A DNA stretch of 64,000 nt from Blepharisma japonicum (taxonomy: Eukaryota; Ciliophora; Heterotrichea; Heterotrichida; Blepharismidae). The stretch is taken from positions 496,001 through 560,000 of the forward strand of contig CATKHK010000012.1 of assembly GCA_949751835.1 (NCBI GenBank), in the 5' to 3' direction. Below the pieces are notes generated by a model. That model searched no databases, had not been told where the DNA came from, and saw only the letters and a program-made list of their open reading frames with translations. The first letter of the stretch is position 1, and each line of letters starts with the position of its first letter. Positions 39,617 to 63,058 of this stretch are shown here, piece after piece. The translations under genes and the position numbers were made by a program.

Positions 39617-41863
39617 ATGTCTACCAATCCTGGCATTGAAAATTTTGAAGTTCGTGGAGATATTCCTCAAGCCCGCTTTGGTGATTTCTAATCAGGTCAT
39701 ACAATAACACTAATTACAAAATCTAAAGCAATTTTATTTGGAGGCGCAACTGGAGATACAGGGAAATATTCGATCACTGGTGATACATATTGTCTTGATC
39801 TTGCTACAAGAGTTTGGACGAAGCTGGATCCTAATGGGTCAGTGCCATCTCCTAGGGCAGCTCATGCATCTTCTATAGTTGAAAATATGCAGCTTGTAGT
39901 CTATGGAGGCTCAACAGGTGGAGGAAGTCTTGCAAGTGATGATTTATATCTACTTGATCTTAGAAATGGGGAATCAGCTGCTAGCTGAATGATAGTCCCT
40001 GTTATAGGAACAACCCCTGGAAGACGATATGGCCACACTCTGCTATTTTCGAAGCCTCATTTACTGTTATTTGCTGGGAATACTGGCTCAGAAACAGTAA
40101 ACGATGTTTGGTGCTTAAATGTTGAAAGGTCTCCTTTTTCATGGCAGAAGATTGAAATAGTTGGCGATCAGCCTAATGCAAGAGTCTATCATTCGGCAGC
40201 TTTATGTGTAACTGGCTCAGCGTCTGGAATGATGATTATTTTTGGTGGAAGAACTGGAGATCAAAGTGCTTTGAATGACTCATGGGGCCTTAGACGACAT
40301 CGTGATGGCCGATGGGATTGGGTTCGTGCTCCTTATAAGCCTGGAGGAATTCTTCCAACACCTCGATATCAGCATACTTCTACCTTTTTAGACTCTGTTA
40401 TGATTGTAGTAGGAGGGAGAACAAATAGGGTAGGTGAAAGTGTAGCTCTCGAAGTATATGACACTGACAGCTCAGAATGGTATCGTTTTCCATCAATTTT
40501 ACGTTTTCGACACTCTTGCATCAGCTTAGATACTTTATTATATATTCATGGTGGTTTTGAGCATGATACTCCTAATATTCCTACATCAGTGATTACAAAG
40601 GTAGACACATCAAAGCTTTTTACTGGCTTCGATAATTTAGCTCCAAAAAATAATCAAAGAAGCTCCCCAAAACCTCAAGAATCCAGACCTTTGCCTCCAC
40701 CTCCAGACCAAGACCTCTCAAAAACTCGGCCTGGGATTATTCCTGTAATCACATCATCTACATCAGAAAGAGGCAACCCTTTGCATAATATTTTTATAAA
40801 CCATCTATTGCGCCCGACTGAATGAAACACCCCTGCAAACACAAGATTTAGCTTTAGAAAAGAACATATTTTAGCCCTTGCTGATGAATGTGAAAATATT
40901 ATAAAAAATCAGCCAATGGTGCTAAGATTAAGAGCTCCAATAAAAATTTTTGGAGACGTCCATGGACAGTATGCAGATCTAATGAGATTTTTTGACCTTT
41001 ATGGATGCCCTTCAGAGAAGAAAAAAGATGGTGGGGATATTGATGGGTTTGATTATTTATTTATAGGAGATTTTGTAGACCGAGGGTCTCATTCATTAGA
41101 AACAATTTGTCTATTAATGGCATTAAAATGCAAATATCCTAACCAAATCCATATGATTCGAGGAAATCATGAAGATAAATGGATAAACAACACCTTTGGG
41201 TTTGCAGAGGAATGCCAAATACGTATAAATGAAGATCCAAATGATCCGAGAAGTATTTTTGCCAGAATTAATAGACTTTTTGAGTATTTACCTCTTGCAG
41301 CTGTCATTGAAGAAAAAGTGATATGTCTGCATGGAGGGATTGGAAGTACATTAAGGACAATAGACCAAATTGAAGCGCTACCAAGGCCATTAGAAGTTGT
41401 GCATGAGGTTACTAATGACCAGGAACAGTTAGTTGTAGATATTTTGTGGAGTGATCCTACAGATTCTGACCAACAGTTAGGAATCCAACCTAATGTCATA
41501 AGAGATCCTAATGGGACTGGAAATATCGTAAAATTTGGTCCTGATATCGTAAAAGACTTTTTAAATGCTAATGGTTTATCAAAAATTGTAAGAGCTCATG
41601 AATGCGTTATGGACGGATTTGAAAGATTTGCAGGAGGAGATCTAATTACTGTATTTTCAGCAACTGATTATTGCGGGAGGCACAAAAATGCTGGAGCTGT
41701 GCTGTTTTTCAAGAAAAATTTTGAAATTAAGCCAAAATTAATATACCCTGTCGACAATCCTTATGGCTCAAATTGGATTGAAAGTGAAGATGCATTGAGA
41801 AAAAGACCACCAACACCTCCTAGATGGAGAATTAATGAACAAAGAAGAGTTTCTTATGATTAA
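39617..41863 (+). CDS. Kelch-domain PPP phosphatase (PPKL, BSU1-type)
   Basis: 743 residues, join(39617..39680,39696..41863). The 15-nt intron GTGATTTCTAATCAG (a GTG 5' site) joins PQARFG to HTITLITKSKAILFGG and removes an in-frame TAA. Kelch repeats occupy about residues 15-345 (AAHASSIVENMQLVVYGG, YHSAALCVTG, MMIIFGGRTGDQSALND, RYQHTSTFLDSVMIVVGG). After a Pro-rich linker the PPP catalytic domain (about 430-740) has KIFGDVHGQYADL, GDFVDRGSHS, MIRGNHEDKWIN, VICLHGGIGS, RAHECVMDGFERF and FSATDYCGRHKNAG, giving all metal and catalytic residues. PPKLs are found in plants (BSU1, BSL) and alveolates. The signalling partner here is unknown. Confidence 0.95.
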
Positions 41864-41930: not shown

Positions 41931-43250
41931 ATGCAAAGATGCTCAAACGAGAGATGCCAAGAACAGCCTATAGTATTTTGTCGCTGTAATAGCCAAGCTT
42001 TTTTATTCTGTGAAAATGACTATTTTAATCATACTCTAGAATGCCCTTGTGAAATTCATGACACTAAACGCCTTAATCCTATCAATTTAGAAGCTTTTAA
42101 CAGCCTCTCAAATAAAATAAAAGAAGTGATCGAAGAAGCTGAGCAAATTAAAGACAAATTTGCGATAGAAACTGGGAAAATTGTTCAAGAACACTCACAA
42201 ATTATAAAGAAAACTCTTAAAGCAAATGAAAGTCTGAAGAAAGAAATGAACTCTATCATAAATCAGTGTGAAAAAATTATTCAAAAATTAAGTGATCCGA
42301 TTATAAATAAAAACTTTTATAGTCCTTTGGAATATATACTGATAAATGACATATCCAAATCAGCACATATATTAAATGAAATCCAGCCTCCAAAAATCGT
42401 AGAAACTCAGACAGCTCAAGATTTATGAGAAAAAATTAAATTAAAGACTTCATTTTTCAGTTATTTATTGAACAATTATTCAACATATTCAATTTATGTT
42501 AGAGGGCAAAGCTGCCCTTTTTCAGTTGTAGGAGTTAACAAATTCAACGAATTTTCTTATACTTATGATACTATCGGTTACGAATCAAGGTTTCTATTTG
42601 TCAGTCCTCATGAAATTATGATAACTGGAGCCAAAAACCCCGAAAATGAGAACCAATGTTTACTTCTTGATATTAACAATGGCCAATTTTTATCGAAACC
42701 AAATTTAAATATTGGGAGATATTGGCATTCCTTCGCTCTTTTCAAAGGCTGCCCTGTTGTAATTGGAGGAAACTCTCAAAACGAAGCCTTAAGCTCAGTG
42801 GAGATATTAGAATTTGATAGCTGAAAAGCCATGCCTTCTATAAAAAATGCTAGATGGTCTGCTGGAGTATCATGCTTATTTGATAGGATTTTTCTATTTG
42901 GGGGAAATTGCCAAAAGTCAACTATTGAAGTTTTTTATGAAGACAAAAATGAGTGGGAAGAAATAGATATTGAGATTAGCTATAGAATTAGCCCAGGAGT
43001 TATAGGTCTTTATGGAGGTAATCTGCTGATTTTTGGAGGCAAGGTAAATGAACTTTTTTTGAAAGACGAGGTTTTTAAAGTTGATATGGCGTCAGGAAAA
43101 GTGTCAAAAATGAACTCTTTGCCATATTGCAGCAGTCACCCGTATGGTTGCTATTCTATCACTGATAATGACTTTTTGCAGTTTATCTTTACTCAAAAAT
43201 ATTCTGGTAGAATGACTTGGGGATTTGAAGAGGAAATAAATTTTACTTAG
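41931..43250 (+). CDS. K1: Cys/His module, coiled coil and Kelch propeller protein
   Basis: 439 residues. The start at 41931 gives MQRCSNERCQEQPIVFCRC, the family N-terminal Cys/His module (C-x4-C...C-x-C...C...H), ending near residue 48. A coiled coil follows (about 55-125). The family linker NFYSPLEYILINDIS and then kelch-type blades come next (LFVSPHEIMITGAKN, HSFALFKGCPVVIGGN, ARWSAGVSCLFDRIFLFGGN, SPGVIGLYGGNLLIFGGK). TGA=Trp at QDL-W-EKIK and FDS-W-KAMP. It is the first of four related Kelch genes, paired convergently with W1 but separated from it by duplicated 3' fragments. Function unknown; a scaffold or substrate-binding role is inferred from the propeller. Confidence 0.82.
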
Positions 43251-43312
43251 AATAATAGAATTATAATAATATTCGTACAAATATTATCTTAATGATGTGC
43301 TAATAAAGATAT

Positions 43313-43815
43313 TGCTCAGATGACCATAAAAATTCTTCAAAAAATCTACGAGATGTAGCTAGAGAGGAAATCTCTTGTATAGTAACGTTATCTGAACAAA
43401 TTTTCTGATTTGTAGCCAAAGTCAATGCTCTGGTAGCATCAGAATCTTGATCTCCTCAATGCTATTTTTTCTCTTTATTTTTCATATTTTACGTCCCGTC
43501 ATGGCTTCCTGAAGCTAGCAAACTTCCTTTATTAGACCATGAAATTGATTTAATCTCATTTCCATGTTCTCTTATCTTAAATAAGAATGCAATTTCGAAC
43601 TCTGTTGCGCTTTCTGGAATTTCATAGACGCTACATAGAGCGATGGATCCACCCTCAAGTCCTGCAGCTATAAAAAATCAATCCTCCAGCCATTTAATGC
43701 ATCTAATTTTTGAAGAAATTTCTATATCAGTGCTTTATATTTATATTATTTTTATAATCCCATATTTTGATATTTTTCAATGCTCCAAATGCAATATACT
43801 GATAAAAGCTAATCC
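43313..43815 (-). pseudogene. 3' fragment of a W-type (WD40) gene
   Basis: This region matches the 3' 500 nt of W1 (44445-44950) along its whole length in the same order and orientation. For example, 'gctcagatgaccataaaaa' occurs in both, and an Arg/Lys-Asn linker and WD40-blade sequence can be followed in both, at roughly 75-80% identity by eye. It has no 5' part of the gene and contains frame breaks. It ends abruptly at about 43815 where Kelch sequence begins, marking the duplication junction. Confidence 0.75.
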
Positions 43816-44442
43816 AAACAACAGCAGATGCCTAAGCAAACACAACAATTTTTCATATACTTGCGATACTATTGATCACCAATCAGGGTTTTTATTTGTC
43901 AGTCCTCATGAAATTATGATAACTGGGGCCAAAAACCATTAAAATAAGAAACAATGTTTACTTCTTGATATTAACAATGGCCAATTTTTATCGAAACCAA
44001 ATTTAAATATTGGGAGATATTGGCATTCCTTCATACTTTTCAAAGGATGCCCTGTTGTAATTGGAGGAAAATCTCGAAGCAATGCTTTAAGATCAGTGGA
44101 GATATTAGAATTTGATAGCTGAAAAGCCATGCCTTCTATAAAAAATGCTAGATGGTCTGCTGGAGTATCATGCTTATTTGATAGGATTTTTCTATTTGGG
44201 GGAAATTTCCAAAAGTCAGCTATCGAAGTTTTTTATGAAGACAAAAATGAGTGGGAAGAAATAGATATTGAGATTAGCAGTAGAATTAGCCCAGGAGTTA
44301 TAGGTCTTTATGGAGATAATCTGTTGATTTTTGGAGGCATGGCAAATGATGATTTTAAAGACGAAGTGATTAAAGCTGATTTGGACTCAGTGATTCAAGA
44401 ATAATGACTTGGGAATTTGAAGAGGAAATAAATTTTACTTAG
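43816..44442 (+). pseudogene. 3' half fragment of a K-type (Kelch) gene
   Basis: Nearly identical to the 3' half of K1: FLFVSPHEIMITGAKN, LLLDINNGQFLSKPNLNIGR, EILEFDS-W-KAMPSIKNAR, LFDRIFLFGGN and IEVFYEDKNEWEEIDIEIS all recur. It lacks the N-terminal module and coiled coil, has a TAA after AKNH, and a further stop after SVIQE. The homologous end overlaps the stop of W1 by a few bases (44435-44442). It is the product of the same internal tandem duplication as the preceding W fragment, and relatively recent judging from the high identity to K1. Confidence 0.8.
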
Positions 44443-46516
44443 GCTCAGATGACCATAAAAATTCTTCAAAATATAAAATAGGTGTAGCTAGAGAGTCATT
44501 CTCTTGCATAGTAGCATTATCTGAATGAGTTTCCTGATTTGTAGTTAAAATCAATTCTCTGATAATACTAGAGTCTTGGTCTTCCTCAAAACTATTTTTT
44601 CTCTTTATTTTTCACATTTTTACAGTCCCATCATAGCTTCCAGAAGCTAGCAAGCTTCCTTTGTCAGACCATGAAAGTGATTTTACCTCATATTCATGCC
44701 CAGGAATCTTAAATAAAATACTAATTTCAAACTCAGCATCGCTTTCTATTATTTCAATGACGCTAAGTACAGCTATGAATCCATTCTCAAGTCCTGCAGC
44801 TATAAGACATCAATGCACCAGTCATTTAATACATCTGATTTTTGAAGAAAATTCTATTTCAGAGCTTTTACATATTTTATTTGTTTTCAGGTGTCATATT
44901 TTGATGCTTTTTCATGCTCCAAATGCAATATACTGATCATAGCTAATCCAATCAATGCAATAGATATCTGAACCTCTATACTCTAATATTTTTTCTTTCT
45001 TTTCTACATCTATTACCTTAATTACTCCATTTCCAACCAAATAGCAGATGTACTTAGCTGATTGAGACCATAGTAAATCTAGAATTCAGCCGCCTTGAAA
45101 TTTTCTTTTATATACTTTTTTACTTGTTTCGATATCTCATATTTTGAAATCTTGATAAGTACTCCCAGTTGCAATTTTGTAGTCATTAGGACTTCACGAT
45201 ACAGCTAATATTTCTCCTTTATGATAATCTTGCTTTTCTATAAAAAGTGGATTTTCTTCATTAAATGGCTCCCATATAAGCATATGCCCCTCAAAGAATC
45301 CAGATGCAAGATATTTATCGTCATAAGACCAGCTTATGCTTCTAGCTATGCAAGAATCATCACTATAATAAAGTTCTTTAAGAATTTTTGGGGAATTTGA
45401 AGAATAAATTAAGATTTTGTAAGATTGAGAAGCTGCGATTCAAGACTCATTATGGGAGATAGACACACAATTAATTCTTAGAAGCTCAGACGGAATTGAT
45501 TTATTAAGCATATCGAAATTTATATCATCCACAAGGCAGCCTATAAATTGACTTTTAAAGACATCGCAATGGCTTAAATCTGCATTAGTAAAATTAGTCC
45601 TATAAAAAGCCCTATGAGATAAATTTGCACAAGGAATTTTTATACCAGAAAAATCTGCAAAATTAAATGAATAGTTTGATTTTACTAAGATTGAAAAAGC
45701 ATTGGAAGCTGATTGAATCATAGTGTCATGTTTTTTTGAAAGGTGCACAATGTTATACAGCAGTTCTTGGTTTTCTTTTGACAAGTTATTAGCTACATTA
45801 GATAAGATAATTTCTTTATCACAAAAATTTGTTTTATTGAAGTAATGGTCTTTAAGGTTATCACGAAGATCAGCTTCAGAATCCTTGAATTTTTCCAAAA
45901 AATTAAAAAAATTCAGAATTGTTTGGGAGTATAAATAATCAATGTTTAATAAAGTCTTTTCACTGAACAAAGTTTTATAATCGGAATTTTCGATTTCTTC
46001 ACAAATCTTGCTCTTTCAAGAATCGTCAGAAGTCATCAAAAATATTTCTTTTATATCATCAACGCTTTTGGACATCTTATCGACTTCTTCTTTTAACGTG
46101 TTTAGACTTTCTTCGTAAGATTGTCCGAATTGAGCCTCAAATGTAATTCCTGACCTATTTTTATAGCTATTTTCCGTAAAATATTCAGCTATTTGCCTTG
46201 CAAAATCAAAGTTTTTATCAATTTTGGTATAAAATTCATCGGTTTTTAATTTGAGTAGACTTTCAATTTTTAGCATATAGGATTCTTTTATAGTCTTGAA
46301 ATCATCTAAAATCTTATTTAAACATTCAACTTTTTCTCTTCAAATTTTTTGGTCATAAAAATTCACCCTTTGAGTTCCGTGATTTCGAACTGTTTTTAAG
46401 TGTCCAATTATATGAATTCTGCAATAAGATTTTGGTGGATTTGAGCAAATACATTCCACCATAGAAGGATTGCTACAATTTTCATATGAGCAAGATTCTA
46501 TAAAAGTGTCAGACAT
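44435..46516 (-). CDS. W1: Cys/His module, coiled coil, pentapeptide and WD40 protein
   Basis: 693 residues; every codon from 44438 to 45439 was checked and the frame is open apart from TGA=Trp. Start ATG 46516 gives the Cys/His module (ESCSYENCSNPSMVECIC, then a CRIHIIGHLK-like segment). A coiled coil covers about 50-165. Then come the family segment HYFNKTNFCDKEIIL and a pentapeptide-type stretch (IPCANLSHRAFYRTNFTNAD, LSHCDVFKSQF). The WD40 propeller (about 350-660) shows repeated WS/WD signatures: SWSYDDKYLASGFFEGHML, VSWSPNDYKIATGS, FKIWDIET, LSWSDKGSLLASGSYDGTVK. Function unknown. It is the partner of K1 in a convergent pair. Confidence 0.82.
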
Positions 46517-47029
46517 TATTTATGGAAAATATTGAAATTCAATCATAAAATAAATCGTTAATATTACTAAATATTTTAAACTTATCAGTTTACAAACCTC
46601 AGGTGGCCTTCTAAATAAAACAAATGTAGTAAAACTCGATGCTTAAAAATCAAAGATAAATCCATGACAGAAACTGAAAACTTTTTTTAAAAACTCAGAC
46701 GATTCATAAAGCTATTAAATAATAAAGACTGACTTTAGAGATGGAAACTTTCATAAATCAATGCAAAGAGTATAAAAAAAATAAGTGAGCCAGTTATGAG
46801 GAATATTGCAATTTAAATGTGCCTAAGCTATTTAAATGTAATTTAGAGCATATTTACAAATATATTACATATTCTATCTCTCTTTCCTACAATAATAATA
46901 ACGTTTTCTTATTCATAATTATCATAATATAGTTGTGATTTTGGATTAAAATGATGAATTTATTGAGCCAAATTTGATTGATCAACTTATTCTTGTAAAA
47001 ATAAATTTAATAAAAATATATACAAAAAA
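46517..47029. other. Intergenic between W1 and a Kelch remnant
   Basis: About 510 nt, AT-rich, upstream of W1. No frame is supported. The 3' part may be the decayed 5' end of the Kelch remnant that follows. Confidence 0.4.
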
Positions 47030-47460
47030 TTCAAACCAGAACTTCCCAGAAAACCACATCCAGCAGTTTCCTTATGAAATCCACAATACTGAATCTCTCA
47101 AGTCTATCAATTCCAAACTACAGCTTCTCTTAAATACAATAAAAGAAGTAAAGCAGAAGTTGGATAATAAACATAAATGATATGCAGAGATAAAATCATC
47201 TAAATTACTCCCAAATTATTGCAAAAAATCTACGAGACAATGAAAGCCTTGCTGGAAAAATGGGCTTTATCATCAATTAATGTAAAAAAATTATCCCAAA
47301 AAAGTGAACAATCATAAATAAAAATTTATAGTCTGTTAGAATATATGAAACTAGTCATTAATGAATTTCAACCTCCAAAAATTATAGAAACTAAAACCCA
47401 TCAAGATTTATGAGAAGCAATTATTGTGGAGATTTCATTTTTCAGCTATTATTAAGGTAG
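47030..47460 (+). pseudogene. 5' half fragment of a K-type (Kelch) gene
   Basis: Recognisable from NFPENHIQQFPYEIHNTE, which parallels the end of the Cys module in K1, through a coiled-coil part (LLLNTIKEVKQKLDNKHK) to the linker. At DNA level 'cctccaaaaattatagaaac...catcaagatttatgaga...tttcatttttcagctatt' matches 42390-42470 of K1. Several stops and frame changes separate these pieces and the Kelch half is absent. It is a decayed copy. Confidence 0.65.
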
Positions 47461-47729
47461 CAAGTAAAATTCATAAAATCTTTTAACACAAATTTATAAT
47501 TTTAACTTTCTTATCAAATTCAAATAAAGCGATAAGTTTAAATCCTTTAAAACGAAGATAGCTAATGAATAAAGAAAAAATGGATCAATAAAGCTATGAA
47601 GACTTTAAGAGAAATAAAAATTCTTCCCTATAAAATAATAATTTACAATCTAGGAATATTAAGAATGATAAGCTTCTATTTTTGAATCTTCTTTATAGCG
47701 CATTTTAAGTAATAAGATTTATAATTAAT

Positions 47730-49064
47730 ATGAGCTGCCTTGTAAAATGCAATGAGCAAATGTGTAAGAACAAGGAAGCAGAATTTTCCTGTATATGTGG
47801 AAACTTTGAATATTATTTCTGTTTTAATCATTATATCAGCCACTTAAAACAATGTAGCGAAGCAGATCATAAAACAATTCAAATCATGAGTGTCAACTCA
47901 AAAATCTGTGAAAAAATTGAAGACAAAGTTAATGTCGTTATAGAAGAGATAATTAGAATTAAAGAATTAGTTATTAAAGAAATAAATAAAGTAGAAGACT
48001 ACCACAAAAATGCCTGGGCAAAGGCCTCTAAGACGAAAAAAAATATAATCACTGAGCTTCAAGCAAACTTGGACACTTGTAATGTTTTAATCGAAAAAAT
48101 AAAAAAACCAATCTTAAAAAAAGACTATTATACTCAGTTAGAATATTTACTTATAAATAAAGATCCTTCATATTCTGATTCCATAATTGACCAAATAAAT
48201 CCTCCTATAATTCAAGAAATAGAACGAGATAAAAATATGTGGAAAAAAATATCATTTCAGAGTGCTGATTTTAGTCATCTTTTAAGTGCTTATAATACTT
48301 ATTGCTTCACTATCAGAAAAAATAATATCATAGCTTATTCTAATTGCATAGGAGATGAAAAAGAATTTAGGAATGATAATATTAATGAAAGCTCAAGATG
48401 CATGCTAATAAGTCCAAACGAAATTTTGATAACTGGAAGTTTAGAAAGTCCAACAATGTGCAGTATATTTGATATAGAAAAATTAACTATAAGAGAGCAA
48501 AATAAACTTAACCATCAAAGATTTTGGCATTGCTGCATATTTCTTAAAGGATTTCCGACTGTTATAGGAGGAAGATTTGATAGTGAAAATTTAAAAACTG
48601 TCGAAAGCTTTAAGTATGGCCATTGGGAAGATGCCCCTTCATTAAATTATCCAAGAAGTTCTCTGGCAGTTTCGTCATTATTTGGAAAAGTCTATGCTTG
48701 TGGTGGAAATAAAGATCATTTTTTTGAAGTATTTGATGAAGAAAAAAATAAATGGGAAGAAATTATGATCAGCAAGCCTCCAGATGCATATATAAGCCCA
48801 GGACTAATAGCACTATCTAAAGACGTCATTTTGATTTTCGGAGGCTCTGCATCAAAGGAATGCCCTTCAAATGAGGCTACCAAATTTTATTTGAAGAATA
48901 ATGAATCTGCAGGAATTATTAATTTGTGCAAAGCAGGGAAATTTTCTTGGGGGTCTTATATTAAAAAAGATGATGTTTTCATGTCAGCTGTGTATTTTGA
49001 GCAATTAAATGAGTTTATTGAATGGAGACTGATAGAAGAAATAATTTTTTCGGAGCAACAATAA
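47730..49064 (+). CDS. K2: Cys/His module, coiled coil and Kelch propeller protein
   Basis: 444 residues, a single frame with no internal TGA. N-terminal module: CLVKCNEQMCKNK, FSCICGNFEYYFCFNHYISH, then C and H. Coiled coil about 60-130 (KVNVVIEEIIRIKELVIKEI). Linker KKDYYTQLEYLLINKDPSYS. Kelch blades: SRCMLISPNEILITGSLES, FWHCCIFLKGFPTVIGGRFD, YPRSSLAVSSLFGKVYACGG, ISPGLIALSKDVILIFGGSA, and FSWGSYIKKDDVFMSAVYF. Very close to K3 in linker and coiled coil (KPI[IL]KKDYYTQLEYLL in both). Paired convergently with W2, 50 nt between stops. Confidence 0.85.
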   Translation: MSCLVKCNEQMCKNKEAEFSCICGNFEYYFCFNHYISHLKQCSEADHKTIQIMSVNSKICEKIEDKVNVVIEEIIRIKELVIKEINKVEDYHKNAWAKASKTKKNIITELQANLDTCNVLIEKIKKPILKKDYYTQLEYLLINKDPSYSDSIIDQINPPIIQEIERDKNMWKKISFQSADFSHLLSAYNTYCFTIRKNNIIAYSNCIGDEKEFRNDNINESSRCMLISPNEILITGSLESPTMCSIFDIEKLTIREQNKLNHQRFWHCCIFLKGFPTVIGGRFDSENLKTVESFKYGHWEDAPSLNYPRSSLAVSSLFGKVYACGGNKDHFFEVFDEEKNKWEEIMISKPPDAYISPGLIALSKDVILIFGGSASKECPSNEATKFYLKNNESAGIINLCKAGKFSWGSYIKKDDVFMSAVYFEQLNEFIEWRLIEEIIFSEQQ

Positions 49065-49114
49065 TAGCATATTAGATAAAAAGGCACTTCTTTAGAATAA
49101 ATATGATTTTTATT

Positions 49115-51163
49115 TTACGTATTAAGAATGATCAATTTTAGTTCTTCTGGCTCTGCCTTGATAAAGCTTGATGCTTCAGAACATCATAATAATTTTTCAT
49201 AATATGAAATTATTATAGTTGATTGAGACTCGCTTTCATTGTAACTTCTAATAGATTTCGTTTCTTCAGTATCTTGGTCTTTATTTTCAGAATTCTTTGC
49301 TTTTATTTGCCAAACTTTTAAAGTTCCGTCCCTACCTCCTGATGCTAGTAAATTATTTTTTTCTGACCAAGCTAAGCATTCAACGTTTTTACGATGGCAA
49401 CAAATATATAATTCAATATTAACTGAGAATGGATGACCTGAATACATATTTTCATAAATCTTTCATATCGTTATTGATCCTTCAGAATTCCCTACTGCTA
49501 AAAAGGATGATTTTTCATTTCAATTAAGAATTGTTATTTGTGCCTCAATTAGATTCGTAAAAATATACCTTTCATCATTCAAAAAATTTCAAATAGTAAT
49601 TTGTTGGTTTTTCCCAGCAGAAACTATATATTTTTCCTTAAAAATCCACTCCAATGAGTATACATCACGCTGAGAATACTTCGTAATAAGCTCATTAGTA
49701 GCTGAGTCACAAACACATATAAATTCGTTTCCATAATAATATGCTAAATATTTCCCTGAATAAGACCACACAAGCATTGCTGACCAATTTCCAAGATCTT
49801 CTTCGAAAAATATTTCGTTTGTTTCAAAATTTCAAACTTTTAATTCCCCAAAACTACTATATAATGCTATTCTATAATCATTTGGGGTTCAAGCAACTTT
49901 AATTATACCACGACTAAATTTAATCACATTTGTAGGGTTGACATCATTATCCCACGTATTTCAAATAAACACCCCCCCATTAAAGTCAGATGAAGCTATA
50001 AACTTATCATCATATGACCATGAAACTACTTGCAGACACAAATAAATTTTATTATAAGAAAATTCTTTTTTGAACTTCGAACTGTATGAGTCATATATTT
50101 TAATTTTGTGGCTTTGGCAAAATGCGACTCATGATCCATCATGAGAAAATTCTACTGAGTTTATTCTCTCTGCTTTATTTATGGATTCAAAATTTGAACT
50201 TTCGCTTGGCAAAATAGTGTCGCTTAAAGTTGTATTTAAAAACTGGGCACATAATAGATTGCAGTTTCTTAAATCTGAGCCGCTGAAATTAGTTTTATAA
50301 AATATTCCATATGATAAATTTGCTTGAGGTATGCAAATCCCTTTGAAATCTCTATTTTCAAAGCTGCATTTTGTTTTGACTAAAATTGATATGGCATTTG
50401 ACCCGGATTGAGCTAAATTTTTGTTTTCTTTTGTCATTTCTATAATAGTAAAAAGAGAATCTTCGCATTTTTGATTCAGATTTTCTGCTACTGCTTTAAG
50501 AATTTTTTCTTTATCACATAAATTTGTTTTATTAAAATATTCGTCTATAGGCTTGCTTGCATCAAAATTCTCTAAAAATCATAAAATTTTATATGCCAAT
50601 AACTCATCAAATTTTGGAAGTTTTCCATCTGCTATAAGCCTTCTGCAGTCTGAGTCCTTTTCTTTTTCACATATTTGATAAGCCCAAGCATTTTCTTTTG
50701 TGAGGATCCCAATATCTTCTATCCCATTAATTTCATCTGCTAATAATTTTAGTTTTTCTTTATATTTTGATAATATTTCTTCAAATGTTAATCTGAATCT
50801 TTTATAAAAATCCATATCTTGATCATTATCTAAATACTCCAATATATCTTCTACTTCTGAGATGCTAGATTCAATTGCAGTTAAAAATTTTTGTATTTTT
50901 GGGCTAATAAGCTTCATTTCTTTTTCCATTAGATTGCCTTTGAGTTCTTTAAAAGCACTTGCAAGACTCTCTAAATCTTCAATTCTTTTCCTTTCAATTT
51001 CCTCATCACTAAGAATTAGTAATTTTCTAACGTTATGCTCTTTAGTTATGCTTTTTAAATGTTCATACAGATGATCTAAACAAAAAGCAGGCGAGTTATC
51101 GGAACATAAGCATATGCAGAAAGGAGTGGTTTTACATTCTGGGGAAGAGCATCTAATTTCCAT
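49115..51163 (-). CDS. W2: Cys/His module, coiled coil, pentapeptide and WD40 protein
   Basis: 682 residues. The segments between the clearly open parts (49448-49588, 49778-50128, 50438-50578) were read codon by codon and contain only TGA=Trp. N-terminal module: IRCSSPECKTTPFCICLCSD, then FCLDHLYEHLK. Coiled coil about 55-165. Family segment NKTNLCDKEKILKAVAEN. Pentapeptide stretch IPQANLSYGIFYKTNFSGSD, LRNCNLLCAQF. WD40 blades: VVSWSYDDKFIASSDFNGG, VAWTPNDYRIALYS, LVWSYSGKYLAYYYGN, LAWSEKNNLLASGGRDGTLK. Close to W3 over the whole length. Function unknown. Confidence 0.85.
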
Positions 51164-51766
51164 ATATTTTATTTATAGATATTAACATTAAATGCGAATG
51201 ATAATTGCTTATTGAATATATGTCTTCAACAGAATGAATTGAATCTGAAAGATAATTTTTTTTAAATATTTATTTTGCAAACCTAATTGTATTAGTTCAT
51301 GCTATGTGCAAGCAATTTATTATTGCAAAATAATGAATAAAAATATCTGGAATATTTAAATTAAGGGGTGTAAATTAGCCTCTTCATTTTTAAGATTGCC
51401 AAACTTCAATAGTTATGGGGTTAAAATCCCATAACTGCGTGTATTTATCATGATGATTTTTCCATTAAGCGCTATATAAACATTGCAGTAGATTGAGCAA
51501 TCGAGATATTTTGATAGCTTTTGCTTGAACAAATTAAAACTATATTTAATTAAAGTATAAATATTGTGATGCCAGCTATTAGACTAGCATGATTCTACAA
51601 TAATATAATTGCTAAAACTGATTAAAATTCTGCTGACAAAAGATTTTTTGAGGGTTATGCTTTAAAGCGATAAGCTAATAATGATTAATAATTTGCAATC
51701 ATCATTTTTTTAACTATATCTTCAATAATTAAAAATTGCTGATATTAAAACTATTTATAATTAAAT
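51164..51766. other. Divergent promoter region between W2 and K3
   Basis: About 600 nt of AT-rich DNA between two divergent starts. No coding frame, RNA or decayed copy was recognised. It likely holds the promoters of both genes. Confidence 0.5.
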
Positions 51767-53086
51767 ATGAGCTATCTACCAGCGTGCGATGCTATATGAT
51801 GTCACAATAAAGCAAGCTATTTGTGTCTGTGCAATAAAGAAGAAAATTATTTATGCTGAAACCACTATATCGACCACATTACCAAATGCAGCTATAAAAA
51901 TCATGAAACAATGCAATTAGAAGGCACGAGTTCGGAAATCTATGATAAAATTCAAGACAAGCTTAATGTAATTATAGAAGAAACAAATAAAGTTAAGGAA
52001 CTAGTTAATGTGGAATTAGGAAAATTAGAAGATTACTATAGAAAAGCAAAGCTAAAAGCAACTAAGACTAAAAAAACATGTAACAGTGAGCTTCAGGCTA
52101 TAATTGATACTTGCGGTCTAATTTTTGAAAAAATGAAAAAACCAATCATTAAAAAAGATTATTATACTCAACTAGAATATTTACTTTTAAATAAAAACCC
52201 CACTTACTCAGATACTATTATAAACCAAATAGAGCCTCCTATAATTCAAGAAATTATTTGGGATAAAAATATGTGGAAAAACATAAGATTAAAAAGTCCT
52301 AGTTTTAGCCATCTTCTAAGTGCTTATAATACTTATGGCTTTACGTTTCGGGATGGTAATTTAATTTATAATGATTTTGTAGAAGGTGAAAAAACATTCA
52401 TCGACTCTGAACTCGATCCAAGTTCAAGATGCATGCTAATAGGTCCAAATTCGTTACTTATAACCGGAGGAATGCTATATCCAAAAAGATGCGAAGTTTT
52501 TGATATAGAAAAACAATGTCTAGTCCCACTAAATCAGCTTAACCATGAAAGATTTTGGCACTGCTGCACATTTATTAAAGGATTTCCAGCAGTTATAGGT
52601 GGGAGATTTAATAATGATTTCCTTACAACTGTTGAAATCTTAAAATATGGCAAATGGGAGGATATTCCTCCATTAAATTATGCCAGAAGTTCTTCATCAG
52701 CTTATGCACTATTTGGAAAAGTGTATGTTTGTGGAGGAAATAAAGAGCATTTCTGTGAAATATTTGATGAGGAAATTAACATATGAAAAGAATTGGTATT
52801 ATTTAAACGTCCAACAGCTCATATTAGCCCAGGATTAATAGGTCTTTATAAAGATGTTATTCTTATTTTTGGCGGCTATGTGAATAAGGATAGCCCATCG
52901 AATGAGGCGTTCAAATATTATATAAATGATAAAGAATTTATTGAAGTTTCTCCTTTTATTGATCCAGGGAAGTTTTCGTGGGGGTCTCATGTAATTAAAA
53001 ATCAAAAAATTTACTCAGGATTTCTTTTTGAGCGGAAGAATGGATTTCTTACATGGGAGCTGAATCAAGAAATTATTTTTGCTTAA
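51767..53086 (+). CDS. K3: Cys/His module, coiled coil and Kelch propeller protein
   Basis: 439 residues, start MSYLPACDAIWCHNKASYLC with three TGA=Trp codons (AI-W-CHN, LC-W-NHY, NI-W-KEL). The module continues LCNKEENYLC-W-NHYIDH. Coiled coil about 60-130. Linker KKDYYTQLEYLLLNKNPTYS. Kelch blades as in K2: SRCMLIGPNSLLITGGMLY, FWHCCTFIKGFPAVIGGRFN, YARSSSSAYALFGKVYVCGG, HISPGLIGLYKDVILIFGGY. The C-terminal strand is FLTWELNQEIIFA. Its 3' neighbour W3 is convergent with a 237-nt gap. Confidence 0.85.
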
Positions 53087-53323
53087 TGCTTGTATAGTTT
53101 ATCCTCTCTAATAGATATATCTTAGAATAAATAAGGAATGCTTAAGATAAATAGTTAATATAATCTTACTAATAAAAGCAAAATAAATTTCAAGTAATTG
53201 CACAGCATCTTTTCATTTATAACTGTTATGTATACTTAAATGTAAAAATATCTCCCTACTAGCATAGAGTTATATATTTTTAAAATTAATTTATGAACTT
53301 AAGCTTTCTAAAGTAAAATAAAT

Positions 53324-55375
53324 TTAATTTTCACTGTTTATGATTATAAATTTTTTTCCTTTTGGCTCTGCTTTAATAAAATGAGACGCTTTGGTACATC
53401 ACAATAGTTCTTCGTAAAATGAAATTTTGATTGAGTCAGCTTCATTTTCATTAAGATTTATGGTAGATTTGGCTTCTTCAGTATCTTGATCCTTCTTTTC
53501 GCTTTGATTTTTCTTTATTTTTCAAATCTTTAAAGTTCCATCCTTACCTCCTGATGCTAATAAATTATTTTTTTCTACCCAAGTTAAGCATTCAACATCA
53601 TCGTAATGGCAGCAAATAAAAAGTTTAAAATTCACTGAAAACGAAGTATCTGCATTTTGATTTTCTTTAATAGTTCACATTGCAATTGATCCTTCATAAT
53701 TTCCTGCTGATAAAAGTGATAATTTTTTATTTCATTTTAAAATTTTTATTTGTGATTCAATTATGCTAGAAAATACAAAAGTTTTTCCAGTAGAAAAATT
53801 TCATATAGTAATTTCTCGGCTTTTTCCTCCAAAGACTAGATAAGTTTCTCCGAAAATTCACTCCAATGAATGTATGTCGCTATGCTGATACTCTGCAATT
53901 AATTGATTGTTAGCTGAGTCACATACGTAGATACATTCATTTCCATAATAGTATGCTAAATATTTTCCAGAATAAGACCACAATAAAATTGTTGGCCAAA
54001 GACCTAAATTTTCTTGAAAGATTAATTCTTCTTTTTCAAAATTTCAAACTTTTATTATCCCAAAGTTACTATATGAAGCAATCCTATAATCATCTGGGGC
54101 CCATGTGACTTTAATTATATCATTATTATGAGATTCAATCTTTTTTATAGGTTTAAAATTATCACCCCAAGTATTTCAAATGAAAGTTATTCCATTTCAG
54201 TCAGATGAGGCTATATACTTATCATCATATGATCATGAAACTACTTGAAGGCATAAAAAAATATCTTCATCTGAAAGATCTTTTTTAAATCTTGAATTAT
54301 AAGAGTCATAAATCTTGATTTTTTTATTTTGGCACATTGCAATTCATGATCCATCATGAGAAAATTCTGCTGAGTTTATTCTGTCTATTGTATTTACTTG
54401 TTCATTAATTGGGCCAGTATTTGGCAAAATAGCTCCTTTTAAATTCACATTTAAAAATTGAGTGCATAATAAATTGCAATTGCTTAAATCTGAGTCACTG
54501 AAATTAGTTTTATAAAATATTCCATATGATAAATTAGCTTGGGGTATACATATTCCTTTAAAATCTCTGCTTTCAAAACTGCATTTTGCTTTAACTAAAA
54601 TTGACATAGCATTTGACCCATATTGGGCTAATGCTCTGTCTTTCTTTGTCATGTCTATAATATCAAAGAGAGCTTGTTCTCGTTTTTGGTTAAGATTTTC
54701 TGCCACTATGTTAAGAATTTTTTCTTTATCACAAAAATTAGTTACTTTAAAAAATTCAGCCATAGGGCTTTCATTCAAATTATCTAAAAATCATAAAATT
54801 GTATATGCATAAAGGTTGTCAAACTTTAAGGGCTTTGTTTCTTCCATCAGCTTTTTGTAATCTGAATCCTTTTCTTCTTCACATATATGATAAGACCAAG
54901 AATTTTCTGAAGTGAGTATTCCAATATCTTTTATTCCATTAATATCAGCTATTAGTGAATTTAATTCTTCTTGTGATTTGGATAATATTTGCTCATATGT
55001 CAAGTTAAAATCTTTTAAAAAATCTACTTGCTCATCAGATTTTAAACAATTCAATATTTTCTTGATCCGTAAGATGCTAGAATTAAGGCTTTCTAAAAAT
55101 TTATTAATTTTTGGCCTAAAAAACTTAGCTTCTTTTTCTAAAAGTTGATTTTTGGCAGATTCAAAAGCAGTTGAAAGACCGTTTAAATCATCAATTCTTT
55201 TCTCTGTAATTTCCTTCTGGCTAAGAATTATATATTTTTCAATAATATGCCTTCTTGTGTATTTTTCTATATGCTCACGCAGATGAATTTCACAAAATAC
55301 TGCTGGTTCATCAGAGCATGAGCATTTGTAGAAATAAGCGGCTTCACATCCAGAATGTAAACAGTCAATTTCCAT
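53324..55375 (-). CDS. W3: Cys/His module, coiled coil, pentapeptide and WD40 protein
   Basis: 683 residues. Codons 53327-54343 were read individually, with only TGA=Trp among stop-like triplets. Module: IDCLHSGCEAAYFYKCSCSD, AVFCEIHLREHIE. Coiled coil about 60-165. Family segment FFKVTNFCDKEKILNIVAE (about 207). Pentapeptide stretch IPQANLSYGIFYKTNFSDSD, LSNCNLLCTQFLN (about 280-312). WD40 blades: VSWSYDDKYIASSDWNG, VTWAPDDYRIASYS, LLWSYSGKYLAYYYGN, LTWVEKNNLLASGGKDGTLK. Nearly co-linear with W2. Confidence 0.85.
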
Positions 55376-55569
55376 ATATAATTTTTATGATTGAAATTAT
55401 AGATTAATTAACTAGTAGACTCTTATTATTCTAAATCGTCATTTTATATTTTCCCGATCCTAACTGATTGTGAAAAAAGCAATATTTTTATTAAAATTTG
55501 TAAGAATTATTGCATCTCGGTAATAAAAATCATTGGGATTTTTAAATGCAGGTATTTAATCTAAATAAA

Positions 55570-55905
55570 TAATAAATGCCAAGTTTTCGAATGCCATAAA
55601 GAGGCTGATATTGTTGAAAGTCTAAAAAAGAGACTATTTTTTATGTGAATCGCATTGTCTTGAGCAGGTAATGAAGTCTAATTCTGTTTTTAAAATAAAA
55701 TATTTAGCTCATATAAACCTAAACAGTTTATCTCTTTTGACATATAAAATTATAGAAATTAAAAATAGAACGATTGAAGATAGGAAAAATTTGGAAAAGA
55801 TATTGACATAATAATTGAAAAATATAAAAACAGCTGAAAATAGCTCTTAAAACTAAAGAAAAAATAGTAGCAGAAATGGATGTGCAATTCAAATGTTCAA
55901 TTTTA
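55570..55905 (+). pseudogene. 5' fragment of a K-type (Kelch) gene
   Basis: CQVFECHKEADIVESLKKRL at 55576 onward parallels the K4 start SCQISECLNNPEVYCKCSRN, including spacing to LFF. Further on, a Lys/Ile-rich coiled-coil stretch ends in VAEMDVQFKC, matching the K4 segment LAPELDAAIKAC. Stops and frame changes lie between, and the Kelch half is missing. A decayed copy, probably nearest to K4. Confidence 0.5.
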
Positions 55906-55949
55906 TTTTGGAAAGTTTCAAAACTATTTAAAATTTTTTTATTGTCATA

Positions 55950-56588
55950 AAATTAATATTGTTATAAAAACTATGCTCAAATTGGCCAGACAAGTCATTT
56001 CATCAAGAAAATCGTTAGGAAATTAAATATTTCAGACGTGCTGATGTCCAATCCCTTTTTTTCTTCTTCCAATAAGCAAGAATTAGTTGGAATGCTATTT
56101 TGCGTGACTATATTATTTTTCTTTCCAAAATATAATAGTTAAAATATAGACAAAATTCATCTCAAATTATATTATATTTTCAATTCCATTAATATCAGCT
56201 TTTAACCTTAGCATTTCTTCACTTAATCTTACCATTACTTCACTAATAGATTTCTCATTTAGTATCTATCAATTTTTTTTTCCTTTCTTCAGGCTAATCT
56301 CATTCAGTCTTCTGTAAAGCTTATCAAAATTTAACTACTTAAAATTTTCATTTTATGATTGAGTATTATATTTAATGACGTACAAGTCTCAGAAAATTGG
56401 TTTAAATCCTCAAAGGTGCTGATCTCATCGTTTTTTTGAATATCAATTTTTTGACAATGATAAGTTAAAGTTTCATAGTGACGGATATGATGGCTAAAAT
56501 GACCTTTAAAAAATGCTGAAGGAGATTGGCAAGTGCATTGAATTACAGGCAGATTTTGGTAGCTTTCGCTTGAACAAGTAAAATCCAT
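55950..56588 (-). pseudogene. 5' fragment of a W-type (WD40) gene
   Basis: The start FTCSSESYQNLPVIQCTCQS with a later KGHFSHHIRHYETLTYHC copies W4's FICSSQGCQNISVIQCSCKN and HINDHVRRFGTLTHRT. The coiled-coil start (FSETCTSLNIILNHKMKI) also matches W4 before a stop. The following 350 nt keep scattered W4-like DNA (for example 'tcatttcatcaagaaaat') but no long frame. The pentapeptide and WD40 parts are absent. A decayed close relative of W4. Confidence 0.7.
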
Positions 56589-56879
56589 CTTTCTATAAAT
56601 TATAAATTTATTATATAGACTATAGGCTTAGCAAAAACTCATTTAGTAAATAAAAATATTAAAACTGATTTATTCAATTGAAAATTATTTAGCTTTGAAT
56701 TTATAAAAGATATAGATTTAACTGGTGAGTGATTTTAAAACTCTTATTATACGATAAAACTCAAGCAGAAGTTGATAAGAGCATAATATTCGTTCAAATT
56801 CTAATCTAAAAATTCTCATTATATCTTTAATAACCGATATTTCATCTATCTTTGGGAACCAGAATAGTACTGCTTATAA

Positions 56880-57106
56880 ATTTTTCATTTGAGGCAAAGA
56901 GTTGAATTTTTTTCTAAGATTATTATGAATGTTTTAGATGCACTTGAAAGATTGTTTTAATCTTCAACACTTTTTCTCCAATAATTGATATATTTGTTAG
57001 TAACGCACCTTTTAAGGATGATATTTACAAAGATCTGCTGGTTTATCAGAACATGAGCATTTCGAAAAGAAGTGATAGTGCATGCAAACAAGACAGCTGA
57101 TTTCCA
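56880..57106 (-). pseudogene. 5' fragment of a W-type (WD40) gene, W3-like
   Basis: MEISCLVCMHYHFFSKCSCS followed by DKPADLCKYHP reproduces the W3 start (MEIDCLHSGCEAAYFYKCSC, SDEPAVFCEIHL) and then meets a TAA. DNA downstream keeps traces of the coiled-coil coding. It lies just 200 nt upstream of K4 in divergent orientation, the position of a W gene start in the other repeat units. Confidence 0.65.
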
Positions 57107-57305
57107 TATATATTTTATTTTATGAATTAAAACGATTTTGTAGATTCGTATTACCTCTACCAAAAAAATGCACTAATAAATTATTATTATTATCTTTGTT
57201 ATTAATAACAGTTCCAGCTAGTTCAGCCTTTTATTTAGTGTAAACAATCTGCTGTTATTCTAATTTTACAAAAATAATTCAGAAAATTAATTAAATATAA
57301 AATAT

Positions 57306-58631
57306 ATGGCTTCTTGCCAAATATCAGAATGTTTAAACAATCCTGAAGTATACTGCAAGTGCTCTAGGAATGATCTCTTTTTCTGCGAATTTCATTTCCC
57401 TGATCATTTAGTGTCTTGTAGCTACGATCATAAAATAAAACATCTAGTCCCAAAAAATCTAAATAACCTTTCTCAACTATTGGCTAAAATAGACGATGTT
57501 CGTAATGGAATAGCAAGAATTCAGGAAAAATTAGAAAATAGTATTCAAAAATGTGAGATCAAATTAAAGCAAGCACTTGAGCTTAAAAATAAATTAGCTC
57601 CCGAACTGGATGCAGCAATTAAAGCGTGTGATATTATTGAACAATTGGCTAATAAACCAATTTTTGAAAGAGAATATTACACTCCTTTGGAATATTTAAT
57701 TAAAACTAATGATGATGTTTGGGAGATTTTAGAACAAATTAAGCCTCCTAGAATGGAAAAGATAAAGCCATATGAAGATAAATGCAAAAAATGAAACTTT
57801 TATAGTACAACTGTCTGTCACTTGCTAAATAATTATAATTCTTATTGCATGTTTTTTGAAGAAACTAAAGAAGCAAATGTATTCTCCCTAAGCTATTTTG
57901 ACGGAGAAAATAGCGGTAATATAGATAGTGATAAATTTGAACCTCACTCAAGAATAATGCTAATAAGTCCTTATGAAGTATTAATGACTGGAGGATTTAA
58001 AAAGCCTAAGACATGCAGAATTATCAACCTAAAGAGTAAAACGATCTCAGAAGAGGCTGATTTGAATTGCGAAAGGCTATGACATTGCTGCGCCTTTATT
58101 AAAGGCTATCCTGCAGTAATTGGTGGAAGGTTTAAAGCACAAGGAACTAAAAGTGTTGAAATTTTAAAACATGAGAAGTGAAAAGAAATTGCTCCGCTTA
58201 ATTACCCTAGAAGCTCTCCTGCAGCTTCTACATTATTTGATAAGGTTTATGTATATGGAGGGGGTTTTGCAATCTTCGAAGTTTTCAATGAAAAGTTAAA
58301 AGCATGGCATGAATTAAAATGTAATATAGCTGAAACCCCAACAGTAAGTGTAGGCCTTATTAGTCTATACAATGATTTTATACTAGTTTTTGGAGGAGTT
58401 TTTAATGCTAAAATCCTTTACAATGATATTAAAAAAGCTGATCTTACCACTGGAAAAGTAACTCCTATCATCTCGCTAAAAAAAGAAGGGAAATTTTCAT
58501 ATGGAAATCATATAATCAGACGCAAATTTATAAAATCTTTCAATTCTTCAGAAATAATCGAATTTGAAATAAGACAAGAAATTAGCTTACTTAATCAAGA
58601 ATTTAAGCCTTCTTTTGCTTTATCGAATTAG
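57306..58631 (+). CDS. K4: Cys/His module, coiled coil and Kelch propeller protein
   Basis: 441 residues. N-terminal module: SCQISECLNNPEVYCKCSRN, DLFFCEFHFPDHLVSC. Coiled coil about 58-120. Linker EREYYTPLEYLIKTNDD. Kelch blades: SRIMLISPYEVLMTGGFKK, HCCAFIKGYPAVIGGRFK, YPRSSPAASTLFDKVYVYGG, VGLISLYNDFILVFGGVF. TGA=Trp codons at KCKK-W-NFY, ERL-W-HCC and HEK-W-KEI. The tail (EFKPSFALSN) extends past the other family members and overlaps the W4 gene's 3' end by 29 nt. The most divergent K member. Confidence 0.82.
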
Positions 58632-60534
58632 CTATAAGAAGCTGTGATGCTGGAGAAGCCCATAATAAGTCTTCAACTAATGATATTAATTTTGATCATA
58701 TAATTGATTCTTCGATTTTTTTCCTTGCATTTGAGTCATTATCGATTTTTCAAATTTTTAACGTACCATCAAAGCTGCCTGATACAAGTAATTGATCTGA
58801 CCAGGAAAGAGATGATACGGTTTTAGAATGGCCACAACATAGTAATTCTGGGTGATTTTCGATCAAAACAGAGTTATTTTGTCATAAGCTTCAGACTGTT
58901 ACTGACCCTCCAAAATTTCCAACAGCTAAAAGTTTTCACTTTTGGTTTCATTTTATTGCATTAATCTCATATGCTTCACCATTATGAAATGCAATAGGTC
59001 TTTCGGTAGACAAAAAATCCCAAATATAAATATATGCGTCTTTTCCTGCGAATGCCAGATAATTATCCCAATAAATTCATTCAAGTGCATATATATCGTT
59101 TATGGGCCATTCTTTTATATGCAATTCAGGCCTTATTAGGTAGGTAGAGTCTCATATATTAACACTTCCATTTCCAGAGTATGCAAGATATCGACCTGAG
59201 GGTGACCATGCCACTAGTGTTGGACAGAACTGAAGATTTTGTTGGAAAATATTACTCTCTTCATCATAATACGTTACTACTACATATTTTTCATCATTAC
59301 ACCAAGCAATTCTATAGTCATTTGGAGCTCATGAAATATTTGATATTCGCGCATTGCATACATGCAATTTTTTAACTAGGTTTCTAGATGATGGCTCTCA
59401 TATAAAAATATATCCCCGATAATCGCCTGATATTACAAATTTATCGTCATATGACCATGATGTAGTTTGAAGACATAAATATATTGTCTCATCTGTTAGA
59501 ATACCTACAATTTCTTTAGAGTGAATATCTCATATGTTGATTCTTAATGTTTGGGATACAGCAATATATTTCCCACTATGAGAAATTGATAAATCTTTTA
59601 TTTCATCAACCCATTGCTGGTTTATTTTTAAAGTTGGTAGATTGACATTATTGGATGTAATATTTAAAAATTGGGCTCTTGATATGTTGCAATGATCTAA
59701 GTCTGAGTCACTAAAATCTGTCTTATAAAATATCCCTCCAGATAAATTTGCATAAGGTATTTTAACATTTTTAAAATCCTTATTATTGAATGAGTAATTT
59801 GCCTTAACTAAAATAGACACAGAATTTGACGCAGCTAAGGCTAAATTTTCATTATTCCTTGTTTGAAAAATGATATTGCAGAGTAAATTTTGATGATTTT
59901 GAGTTAAAGTTTTAAAATTATTTAAAAGCTCTTCATCGTTGCATAAATTGATATTGTTATAAAAACTACACTCAAGTTGGTCAGGCAAGGTATTTTCATC
60001 AAGAGAATTGAGAAAATTTAATATTTCAGGAAAACTAACTTTTAAAGCTTTTTCTTCTTCTAATAGGTAAGAATTTGTTGATTCAGCAATCTGTACATTT
60101 TCAATTCCATAAATATCAGCTTCTAAGATTGCTATTTCCTCAGTTAATTTTTCTATAGCTTCAATACCAGATTTCTCATTTAATGTTAATTCCTGATTTA
60201 ATGCTTCTTTTGTTTTTTCAATAAAATTGTTTAGCTCAATCAATCTCCTGTAAAGCACATCTATACTTGATTCCATAATACCGGTTATTTTCTGATCAAG
60301 AGTTATTTTTAACAATTTACAAGTTTCAGAAAATTTGGTTAATTCTTGAATAATTCTAGACTTCGCCTCCTCGTTCTTATGATAGTCAAGTTTTTTAGTG
60401 CGATGAGTTAAAGTTCCGAAGCGGCGTACATGATCGTTAATATGAACTTTACAAATAAGTGTTGGAGGATTTTTGCAAGAACATTGAATTACAGAAATAT
60501 TTTGGCAGCCTTGGCTTGAACAAATAAAATTCAT
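58603..60534 (-). CDS. W4: Cys/His module, coiled coil, pentapeptide and WD40 protein
   Basis: 643 residues; codons 58606-59529 were read individually and only TGA=Trp interrupts. Module: FICSSQGCQNISVIQCSCKN, LICKVHINDHVR. Coiled coil about 55-165. Pentapeptide stretch IPYANLSGGIFYKTDFSDSD, LDHCNISRAQF (about 268-300). WD40 blades: TSWSYDDKFVISGDYRGYI, ISWAPNDYRIAW, VAWSPSGRYLAYSGNGSV, LSWSDQLLVSGSFDGTLKI. Its coding end overlaps that of K4 on the opposite strand. It has a slightly shorter C-terminus than W1-W3. Confidence 0.84.
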
Positions 60535-61012
60535 CTTTCTATAAATTTAATATTTATGCAATAGTTATAGAATTAGAAGATATTCTGCAATAGCGGTAAG
60601 AGAAGTAGTATATTTCTTTAAAGATTAATCCTTTAATGATGACTTAATGTTTATATGCTGTTATATTATTTATATAGCACAGGTGAAATTTGGAAACATC
60701 ATTGAACTAAAGAAATATTTGCTTCTGGCTCTAACTCAGCAAAAAGCAAATCCTACGATACTACAAAAATTATATAAGAGATATAAAATGATTACTCAGA
60801 ATGACCAAGCCTTGCATACAAATAATGAAGGAGGATAAATTCAAAAATTATCAGTGCAGCTTATGTAATTGGATACAGAAACAAAGAGGAAAGACCATAA
60901 AACTAGCAAAAAGAAATATTAAAAATATTATAATTTTTTAAGCATTGAATGTATTATTCTTTCTATATCTAAATCTTGATGATCATAATCAATTAATATA
61001 TAAACTCTTAGT
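60535..61012. other. Upstream of W4; short open frames, none assignable
   Basis: A plus-strand frame at 60647-60838 (starting MFICCYIIYIAQVKFGN, 63 codons) and a second overlapping one ending near 60942 (KNYQCSLCNWIQ) have coding-like Lys/Gln-rich composition but no recognised family and no splice joining them. They could be remnants of another gene. I do not annotate a CDS. Confidence 0.35.
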
Positions 61013-61276
61013 TTATAATACTTTTTTTTCATTATCAAATATAATAGCTAATCTTGTTATTGTATCTTCTAACCCTTTCGTTCCTTTAGTTTGGACTGTC
61101 TTACATAATTTTCGAAAATATTTATCATCTGAAACACATCTTCCATTATATACAAATAATCCCTGGAAATACAAAAGACTATCAATATAATTCCATGACA
61201 TTTCTGTCAGAATTTCTTCTCCTCCATCAAAATAGCCAGCATTTATTGGATAATCTCAGGTACTATTTGAATGCAT
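61013..61276 (-). CDS. Orphan small open frame, possibly a gene fragment
   Basis: 87 codons from an ATG at 61276 (MHSNSTWDYPINAGYFDGGE, where W is TGA). It continues EMSWNYIDSLLYFQGLFVYN, GRCVSDDKYFRKLCKTVQTK and GLEDTITRLAIIFDNEKK, ending in TAA. The composition is clearly protein-like (balanced aromatic and charged residues). I recognise no family, and upstream it is closed by a TAA. It might be the C-terminal piece of a larger lost gene. Confidence 0.4.
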
Positions 61277-61449
61277 TGATTGATAGACTTGACATGGATA
61301 CAAAGAAAATTAAGTGAAAAATCACCTAGAAAATCGTTCTCTTAGACATATAGCAAACAAATTTAGATTTGTCAGACTTATAAAACATTCTGGAAATTAA
61401 GTAATTTTTGGATTGGGCTTCACTCAGCAAATTTCGCAAGAAAAATATA

Positions 61450-62998: not shown

Positions 62999-63058
62999 AT
63001 TATAAAGTATTAATAATCATCAACATTAATATTTAAAGGCATTAAAAATTACTTTTTA

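Follow-up and report, generated by a model that had tools for sequence, protein, structure and literature searches.

Apparent block-wise expansion and decay of convergent Kelch and WD40 genes with a common N-terminal Cys/His module in Blepharisma japonicum

Introduction

In TRIM proteins, a Cys/His module is followed by a helical region and then by a beta domain, and the TRIM genes expand in local clusters. Animal TRIM clusters and plant NLRs provide the comparison for recognition repertoires that diversify, and a WDxR motif is a feature of the DCAFs among WD40 proteins. For the ciliate Tetrahymena, one study describes frequent tandem duplication of young genes and lineage-specific expansion of genes encoding interaction domains, and names LRR, WD40 and other domains in species-specific genes, WD40 being one of the seven commonest (PMC6564038). 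For Blepharisma stoltei, a further report gives UGA as a tryptophan codon and introns of 15/16 bp (PMC9942806). Here, we describe a gene array of Blepharisma japonicum that occupies positions 41931-60534 of a stretch of 64,000 nucleotides (assembly GCA_949751835.1, contig CATKHK010000012.1, positions 496,001 to 560,000; referred to as the window). In this array, plus-strand Kelch genes (K1 to K4) face minus-strand WD40 genes (W1 to W4) in the order K1> <W1 K2> <W2 K3> <W3 K4> <W4. Both kinds of protein carry the same N-terminal Cys/His module, and by analogy we consider it likely, though far from certain, that the array is a cluster in local expansion and partial decay, whose genes encode adaptor-type proteins with the build of TRIM proteins but without a RING domain.

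Results

Gene models for the window, 49 on both strands, were built with TGA read as tryptophan and with introns of 15-16 nucleotides (nt); 47 of them exceed 80 amino acids (aa), and some are doubtful antisense frames. The window is eukaryotic, and its long reading frames continue through TGA codons that lie in frame. With TGA as tryptophan, all eight K and W frames are intact:

K1, 41931-43250, plus strand: 439 aa with Cys/His module, helical region and Kelch propeller; a second possible start ATG lies at 41877
W1, 44435-46516, minus strand: Cys/His module, helices, pentapeptide repeats and WD40 propeller, 693 aa
K2, 47730-49064, plus strand: 444 aa, 55.8% identity with K3
W2, 49115-51163, minus strand: 682 aa, 59.7% identity with W3
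K3, 51767-53086, plus strand: 439 aa
W3, 53324-55375, minus strand: 683 aa
K4, 57306-58631, plus strand: 441 aa, its 3' end overlapping that of W4 by 29 nt
W4, 58603-60534, minus strand: 643 aa

The order, strands and gene lengths given in an initial annotation of this DNA are all present in the sequence, and the assignment to Kelch and WD40 families was confirmed as well. Kelch-type Pfam motifs score above cut-off in all four K proteins and the WD40 motif PF00400 does so in all four W proteins (E 1.7e-16 to 1.6e-24), in each of which pentapeptide repeats precede the WD40 part (three above the Pfam cut-off, W1 just below). Using Foldseek, the W1 model matched G-beta (E 3.3e-17) and WDR5 (E 1.2e-16), while the low-confidence model of K1 matched Krp1 (E 8.8e-10, the best hit), designed Kelch-type proteins and the Kelch domains of Keap1. 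Similarity among the K copies (tblastn E 2.3e-57 or better) and among the W copies (E 9.3e-81 or better) is beyond chance. The array bins between 42 and 64 kb have a guanine-cytosine (GC) fraction of 0.26-0.32, compared with 0.31-0.38 in the preceding bins.

Seven of the eight genes require TGA as tryptophan for an open frame, K2 being free of TGA, and the eight genes together contain 51 in-frame TGA codons. Tryptophan is present at 103 of the 151 paralogue residues aligned to these codons; when comparisons of TGA with TGA are omitted, 39 of 87 residues are tryptophan, encoded by TGG. Because of these aligned residues, the reading of TGA as tryptophan is well supported at the locus. The standard genetic code could be ruled out: with TGA as a stop, seven of the eight genes are interrupted, and the apparent pseudogenes obtained in this way are an artefact.

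The initial annotation had described K and W as two unlike propellers, which is not the whole story: K and W are partly related via a common N-terminal Cys/His module, i.e. one module is carried with two kinds of propeller. By inspection, all eight proteins contain the pattern C-x4-C-x7-C-x-C-x7-C-x2-[HD]-x3-H within their first ~50 residues, K2 with one extra residue (x8), and a pattern search retrieved the motif from seven of the eight and from none of the 41 other gene models. Comparison of the K and W N-termini by hhalign yielded a probability of 94.6 (E 6.5e-8) over 52 columns, in which the Cys and His positions are aligned. In blastp, K1 and W2 matched within residues 3-166 (E 4e-6), and the remaining K-W pairs gave weaker values, from 3e-5 down to chance level. 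We take the Cys/His spacing to resemble that of B-box or AN1 zinc fingers; the isolated N-terminus of W1 produced a weak C5HCH match below cut-off (E 0.031). The predicted models of both K1 and W1 show a helical region following the module, with long helices at residues 53-87 and 90-120 in K1 and at 53-84 and 89-112 in W1. Matches of this region to PDB profiles of helical proteins were weak (best E 0.028 and 0.0021).

The claim that K and W were duplicated together is borne out for K2W2/K3W3 and for the facing ends of K1 and W1, and more weakly for a remnant resembling K4W4. In sum, sequence comparison points to about three block duplications, the K4W4-like remnant being the least certain event. 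K2 and K3 (55.8% aa identity) and W2 and W3 (59.7%) are the closest intact relatives, the other K-K and W-W pairs being 30-36% identical. At the nucleotide level, 49100-51176 and 53315-55388 (W2/W3) are 73.6% identical, and 47808-48967 and 51842-53001 (K2/K3) are 71.6% identical. Synonymous divergence (dS) amounts to 0.83 (0.65-1.05) for K2/K3 and to 0.63 (0.51-0.77) for W2/W3; the difference (confidence interval, CI, -0.03 to 0.47) is not significant, as expected from one event.

In the first pair, the facing 3' ends of K1 and W1 are present as a tandem copy: 42539-43095 and 43314-43821 match 43837-44390 and 44443-44955, respectively, with 90.7% identity in the K half and 80.8% in the W half. 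Over two 60-bp blocks of K1 (42659-42718 and 42839-42898), the decayed K copy does not differ from the gene (100% identity), and because of these blocks gene conversion between K1 and its pseudogene copy may be considered; the W copy beside them is mostly 70-85% identical. In the interval between W3 and K4, K4-like (E 5e-6) and W4-like (E 3e-20) fragments lie side by side, and next to the former 55912-56089 and 56173-56631 match 59906-60080 and 60094-60576 (W4). The K-W block was presumably copied by unequal crossing-over. Divergent W-K pairs would be another way to read the alternating array, but the closest relationships, K2/K3 and W2/W3, fit duplication of K with its convergent W, and the copied segment within the first pair runs across the convergent K-W junction. 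In a blastn self-comparison of the window at E 1e-5, the only match outside the array was 4009-4215 with 23317-23517 (71%, inverted), where both frames appear protein kinase-like by eye.

Six degenerate K or W fragments are located among the intact genes and fill the intergenic gaps of the array:

43315-43816, minus strand: C-terminal part of a decayed W copy, 62-71% aa identity to W1, stops and a frame change
43832-44442, plus strand: decayed K fragment, 83% aa identity to K1 residues 202-388, followed by the final 12 residues
47052-47449, plus strand: decayed K fragment, K1-like N-terminal half
55608-55796, plus strand: N-terminus of a decayed K4-like copy, 33% aa identity over 63 residues (E 5e-6)
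55866-56588, minus strand: part of a decayed W4-like copy, residues 1-225 (E 3e-20), 70-76% nt identity to W4
57018-57107, minus strand: short piece of a W N-terminus, matching W3 residues 1-31 (E 3e-4)

The K fragment at 43832-44442 is 90.7% identical to K1 over 557 bp at the nucleotide level. K and W had been described as always adjacent, which fails for K1 and W1, since the decayed tail of a W copy and the decayed middle of a K copy lie between them. The accompanying statement that the pair is decaying holds in that the cluster both grows and decays, but the eight full-length genes are intact and it is the fragments alone that decay. No W fragment was found next to the K fragment at 47052-47449, and both this one and the W fragment at 57018-57107 are without partner. 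Beyond W4, about 2.5 kb (60535-63058) are unusually empty for a window that is gene-dense elsewhere: a single short gene model (61013-61276) is predicted there, and remnants of K or W were not detected at E 0.05.

Pairwise ratios of nonsynonymous to synonymous substitution rates (dN/dS, omega) are 0.39 for K2/K3 and 0.43 for W2/W3. For the separate regions, values of 0.42 (Kelch), 0.39 (WD40), 0.25 (pentapeptide part of W) and 0.34 (K N-terminus) were obtained, and the fastest region is the W N-terminus with 0.77 (CI 0.52-1.18). No region was significantly above 1 in either comparison, a two-sequence omega having little power for single selected sites. Within the propellers, segments of 20 residues with low identity occur at 201-220 (25%) and 381-400 (30%) of K2/K3 and at 401-419 (30%) of W2/W3.

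Two further Kelch genes are present in the window:

39617-41863, plus strand: Kelch-phosphatase gene directly upstream of K1, with two in-frame TGA and one predicted 15-nt intron
63059-64000, minus strand: Kelch gene of another type, 313 aa visible, open at the window end (Kelch_6, E 6.4e-8)

In the first model, a Kelch-like part at the N-terminus is joined to a phosphatase part of PP1 type, and by eye its product presumably resembles the PPKL/BSU1 family. The second gave no tblastn match to K1-K4 at E 1. Neither gene has a convergent W partner in the window.

Discussion

We favor a local tandem expansion of a block comprising two partly related convergent genes, some copies of which are decaying. 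K and W would be adaptor-type proteins, in which the N-terminal Cys/His module, B-box-like or AN1-like, would bind zinc. To judge from the architecture, the helical region probably dimerizes the proteins; module and helices could also provide a docking site. By analogy with known propellers, the C-terminal domain, Kelch in K and pentapeptide repeats plus WD40 in W, probably binds partner proteins, and the proteins would thus act as scaffolds or substrate adaptors.

Several observations weigh against this interpretation. The predicted model is poor for K1 (mean predicted local distance difference test, pLDDT, 58.8; template modelling score, TM-score, to Kelch targets ~0.5 at best) and moderate for W1 (mean pLDDT 69.2). 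No Pfam B-box, RING, AN1, BTB or F-box was found in K1-K4 at E 0.1 or, at E 1, in W1-W4 (N-terminal 335-345 residues), with complete lists in both cases, nor in the eight isolated N-termini at E 10. Because no Pfam finger matched, the zinc-finger reading rests on the Cys/His pattern and the order of domains. Profiles of W and K retrieved no relatives from viral contigs, the W profile retrieved from prokaryote genomes only a 40-residue single-blade match (Poritiphilus flavus), which we do not take as a relative, and residues 202-354 of W2 found no match in plasmids. The adaptor function is therefore assigned by analogy, as no relative was found outside the window. Moreover, pairwise dN/dS does not distinguish constraint on both copies of a pair from constraint on one.

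Alternatively, K and W could form an obligate two-propeller complex, heterodimerizing via the shared N-terminal module (E 6.5e-8), with the pair being kept and copied as a unit because matched forms of both partners would be required. Repeated co-duplication of K and W would fit this explanation, and so would the fate of the six pair slots as defined here, four of which have both genes intact and two both decayed (43315/43832 and 55608/55866), whereas mixed slots are absent. However, this count reaches only p = 1/15 under independent loss (calculated by hand), and deletions of whole blocks predict the same outcome. The K and W distance matrices correlate with r 0.98, a value that 2 of 24 label permutations attain as well; mirror-tree correlation was ruled out as evidence of interaction, since no decision can come from four pairs that share their duplication history. 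The shared module equally permits homodimers, and the K fragment at 47052-47449 and the W fragment at 57018-57107 have no partner. The two other Kelch genes of the window also lack a W gene, but they weigh little against pairing because they are of other Kelch types. Array order is no proof of joint function either, because copying of a two-gene block alone yields the same order and orientation, and the step from co-duplication to joint action made in the initial annotation does not follow. All in all, we regard an obligate complex as unlikely. Less likely again is the more far-reaching proposal of a heteromeric scaffold in which K and W would be matched partners, with the pair as unit of inheritance and copying and an own specificity per pair, i.e. 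a ciliate two-propeller recognition or adaptor system, of which no description was found among the listed literature matches.

As a further alternative, the propellers could constitute a diversifying recognition repertoire for self/non-self discrimination or for sensing of prey or symbionts. Tandem and decayed copies within a single cluster, deep K and W paralogues of only 30-36% identity and the low-identity 20-residue segments inside the propellers are compatible with this idea. It is at odds with omega values of 0.42 for Kelch and 0.39 for WD40 and with the lack of any region significantly above 1. The fast-evolving recognition family claimed previously is not supported: dN/dS is ~0.4 and the fastest part is the W N-terminus rather than the propellers, which counts against a rapidly diversifying propeller repertoire. 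PADLOC, run with all eight proteins, returned only weak partial matches in four of them (best E 2.4e-6, to a HEAT/ARM model), which were not used. We rank a recognition repertoire lower still, as improbable. Finally, neutral tandem duplication, with extra copies that have no distinct function and head for loss, would account for the six decayed fragments filling the gaps and for the lower GC of the array (0.26-0.32 against 0.31-0.38), but it is the least probable explanation given eight open frames over 439-693 codons at 30-60% mutual identity and pairwise dN/dS of ~0.4 for K2/K3 and W2/W3.

According to the expansion model favored here, it is a two-gene block and not a single gene that appears to have been copied and eroded in a ciliate genome, and the scar in the first pair, where the facing 3' ends of both genes occur twice in tandem, would reveal the copying step. 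One N-terminal module on two propellers side by side offers a natural test of domain swapping versus pairing. Should the pairs be heteromers, they would provide a directly testable system of protein pairs.

How does the array relate to known systems? Among the six of the eight proteins searched against NCBIfam, only W4 had a match, a weak one to a family of pentapeptide proteins that falls far short of the cut-off (E 0.0012). No Kelch/WD40 array in a ciliate was found among the listed matches in open-licence literature (titles and beginnings of abstracts). Classification of W as STAND/NACHT-WD40 receptor was rejected, as neither NACHT nor NB-ARC was detected by Pfam at E 1 in the N-terminal 335-345 residues of W1-W4. 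W resembles CRL4 receptors (DCAFs) and WD40 scaffolds in its G-beta/WDR5-like propeller, but the WDxR motif is absent from all four W proteins, and W possesses the N-terminal Cys/His module and pentapeptide repeats. K has its C-terminal Kelch propeller in common with KLHL proteins, in line with the structural matches to Krp1, designed Kelch-type proteins and Keap1; in contrast to KLHL proteins, BTB and BACK are not in the complete Pfam lists of K1-K4 at E 0.1. In architecture, K and W are like TRIM (RBCC) proteins: the Cys/His module precedes a helical region, and the C-terminus is formed by a beta domain that binds proteins. Expansion in a local cluster is a further likeness. Unlike TRIM proteins, the K and W proteins show no RING-like C3HC4 pattern (0 of 8) and no Pfam RING in K1-K4 or the N-terminal parts of W1-W4, they lack a Pfam B-box match, and their C-terminal domain is Kelch or pentapeptide plus WD40. 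With the young genes of Tetrahymena, K and W share the lineage-specific expansion of interaction-domain genes by tandem duplication; compared with the tandem genes described there, it is a two-gene block with one module and two propellers that is copied here (PMC6564038).

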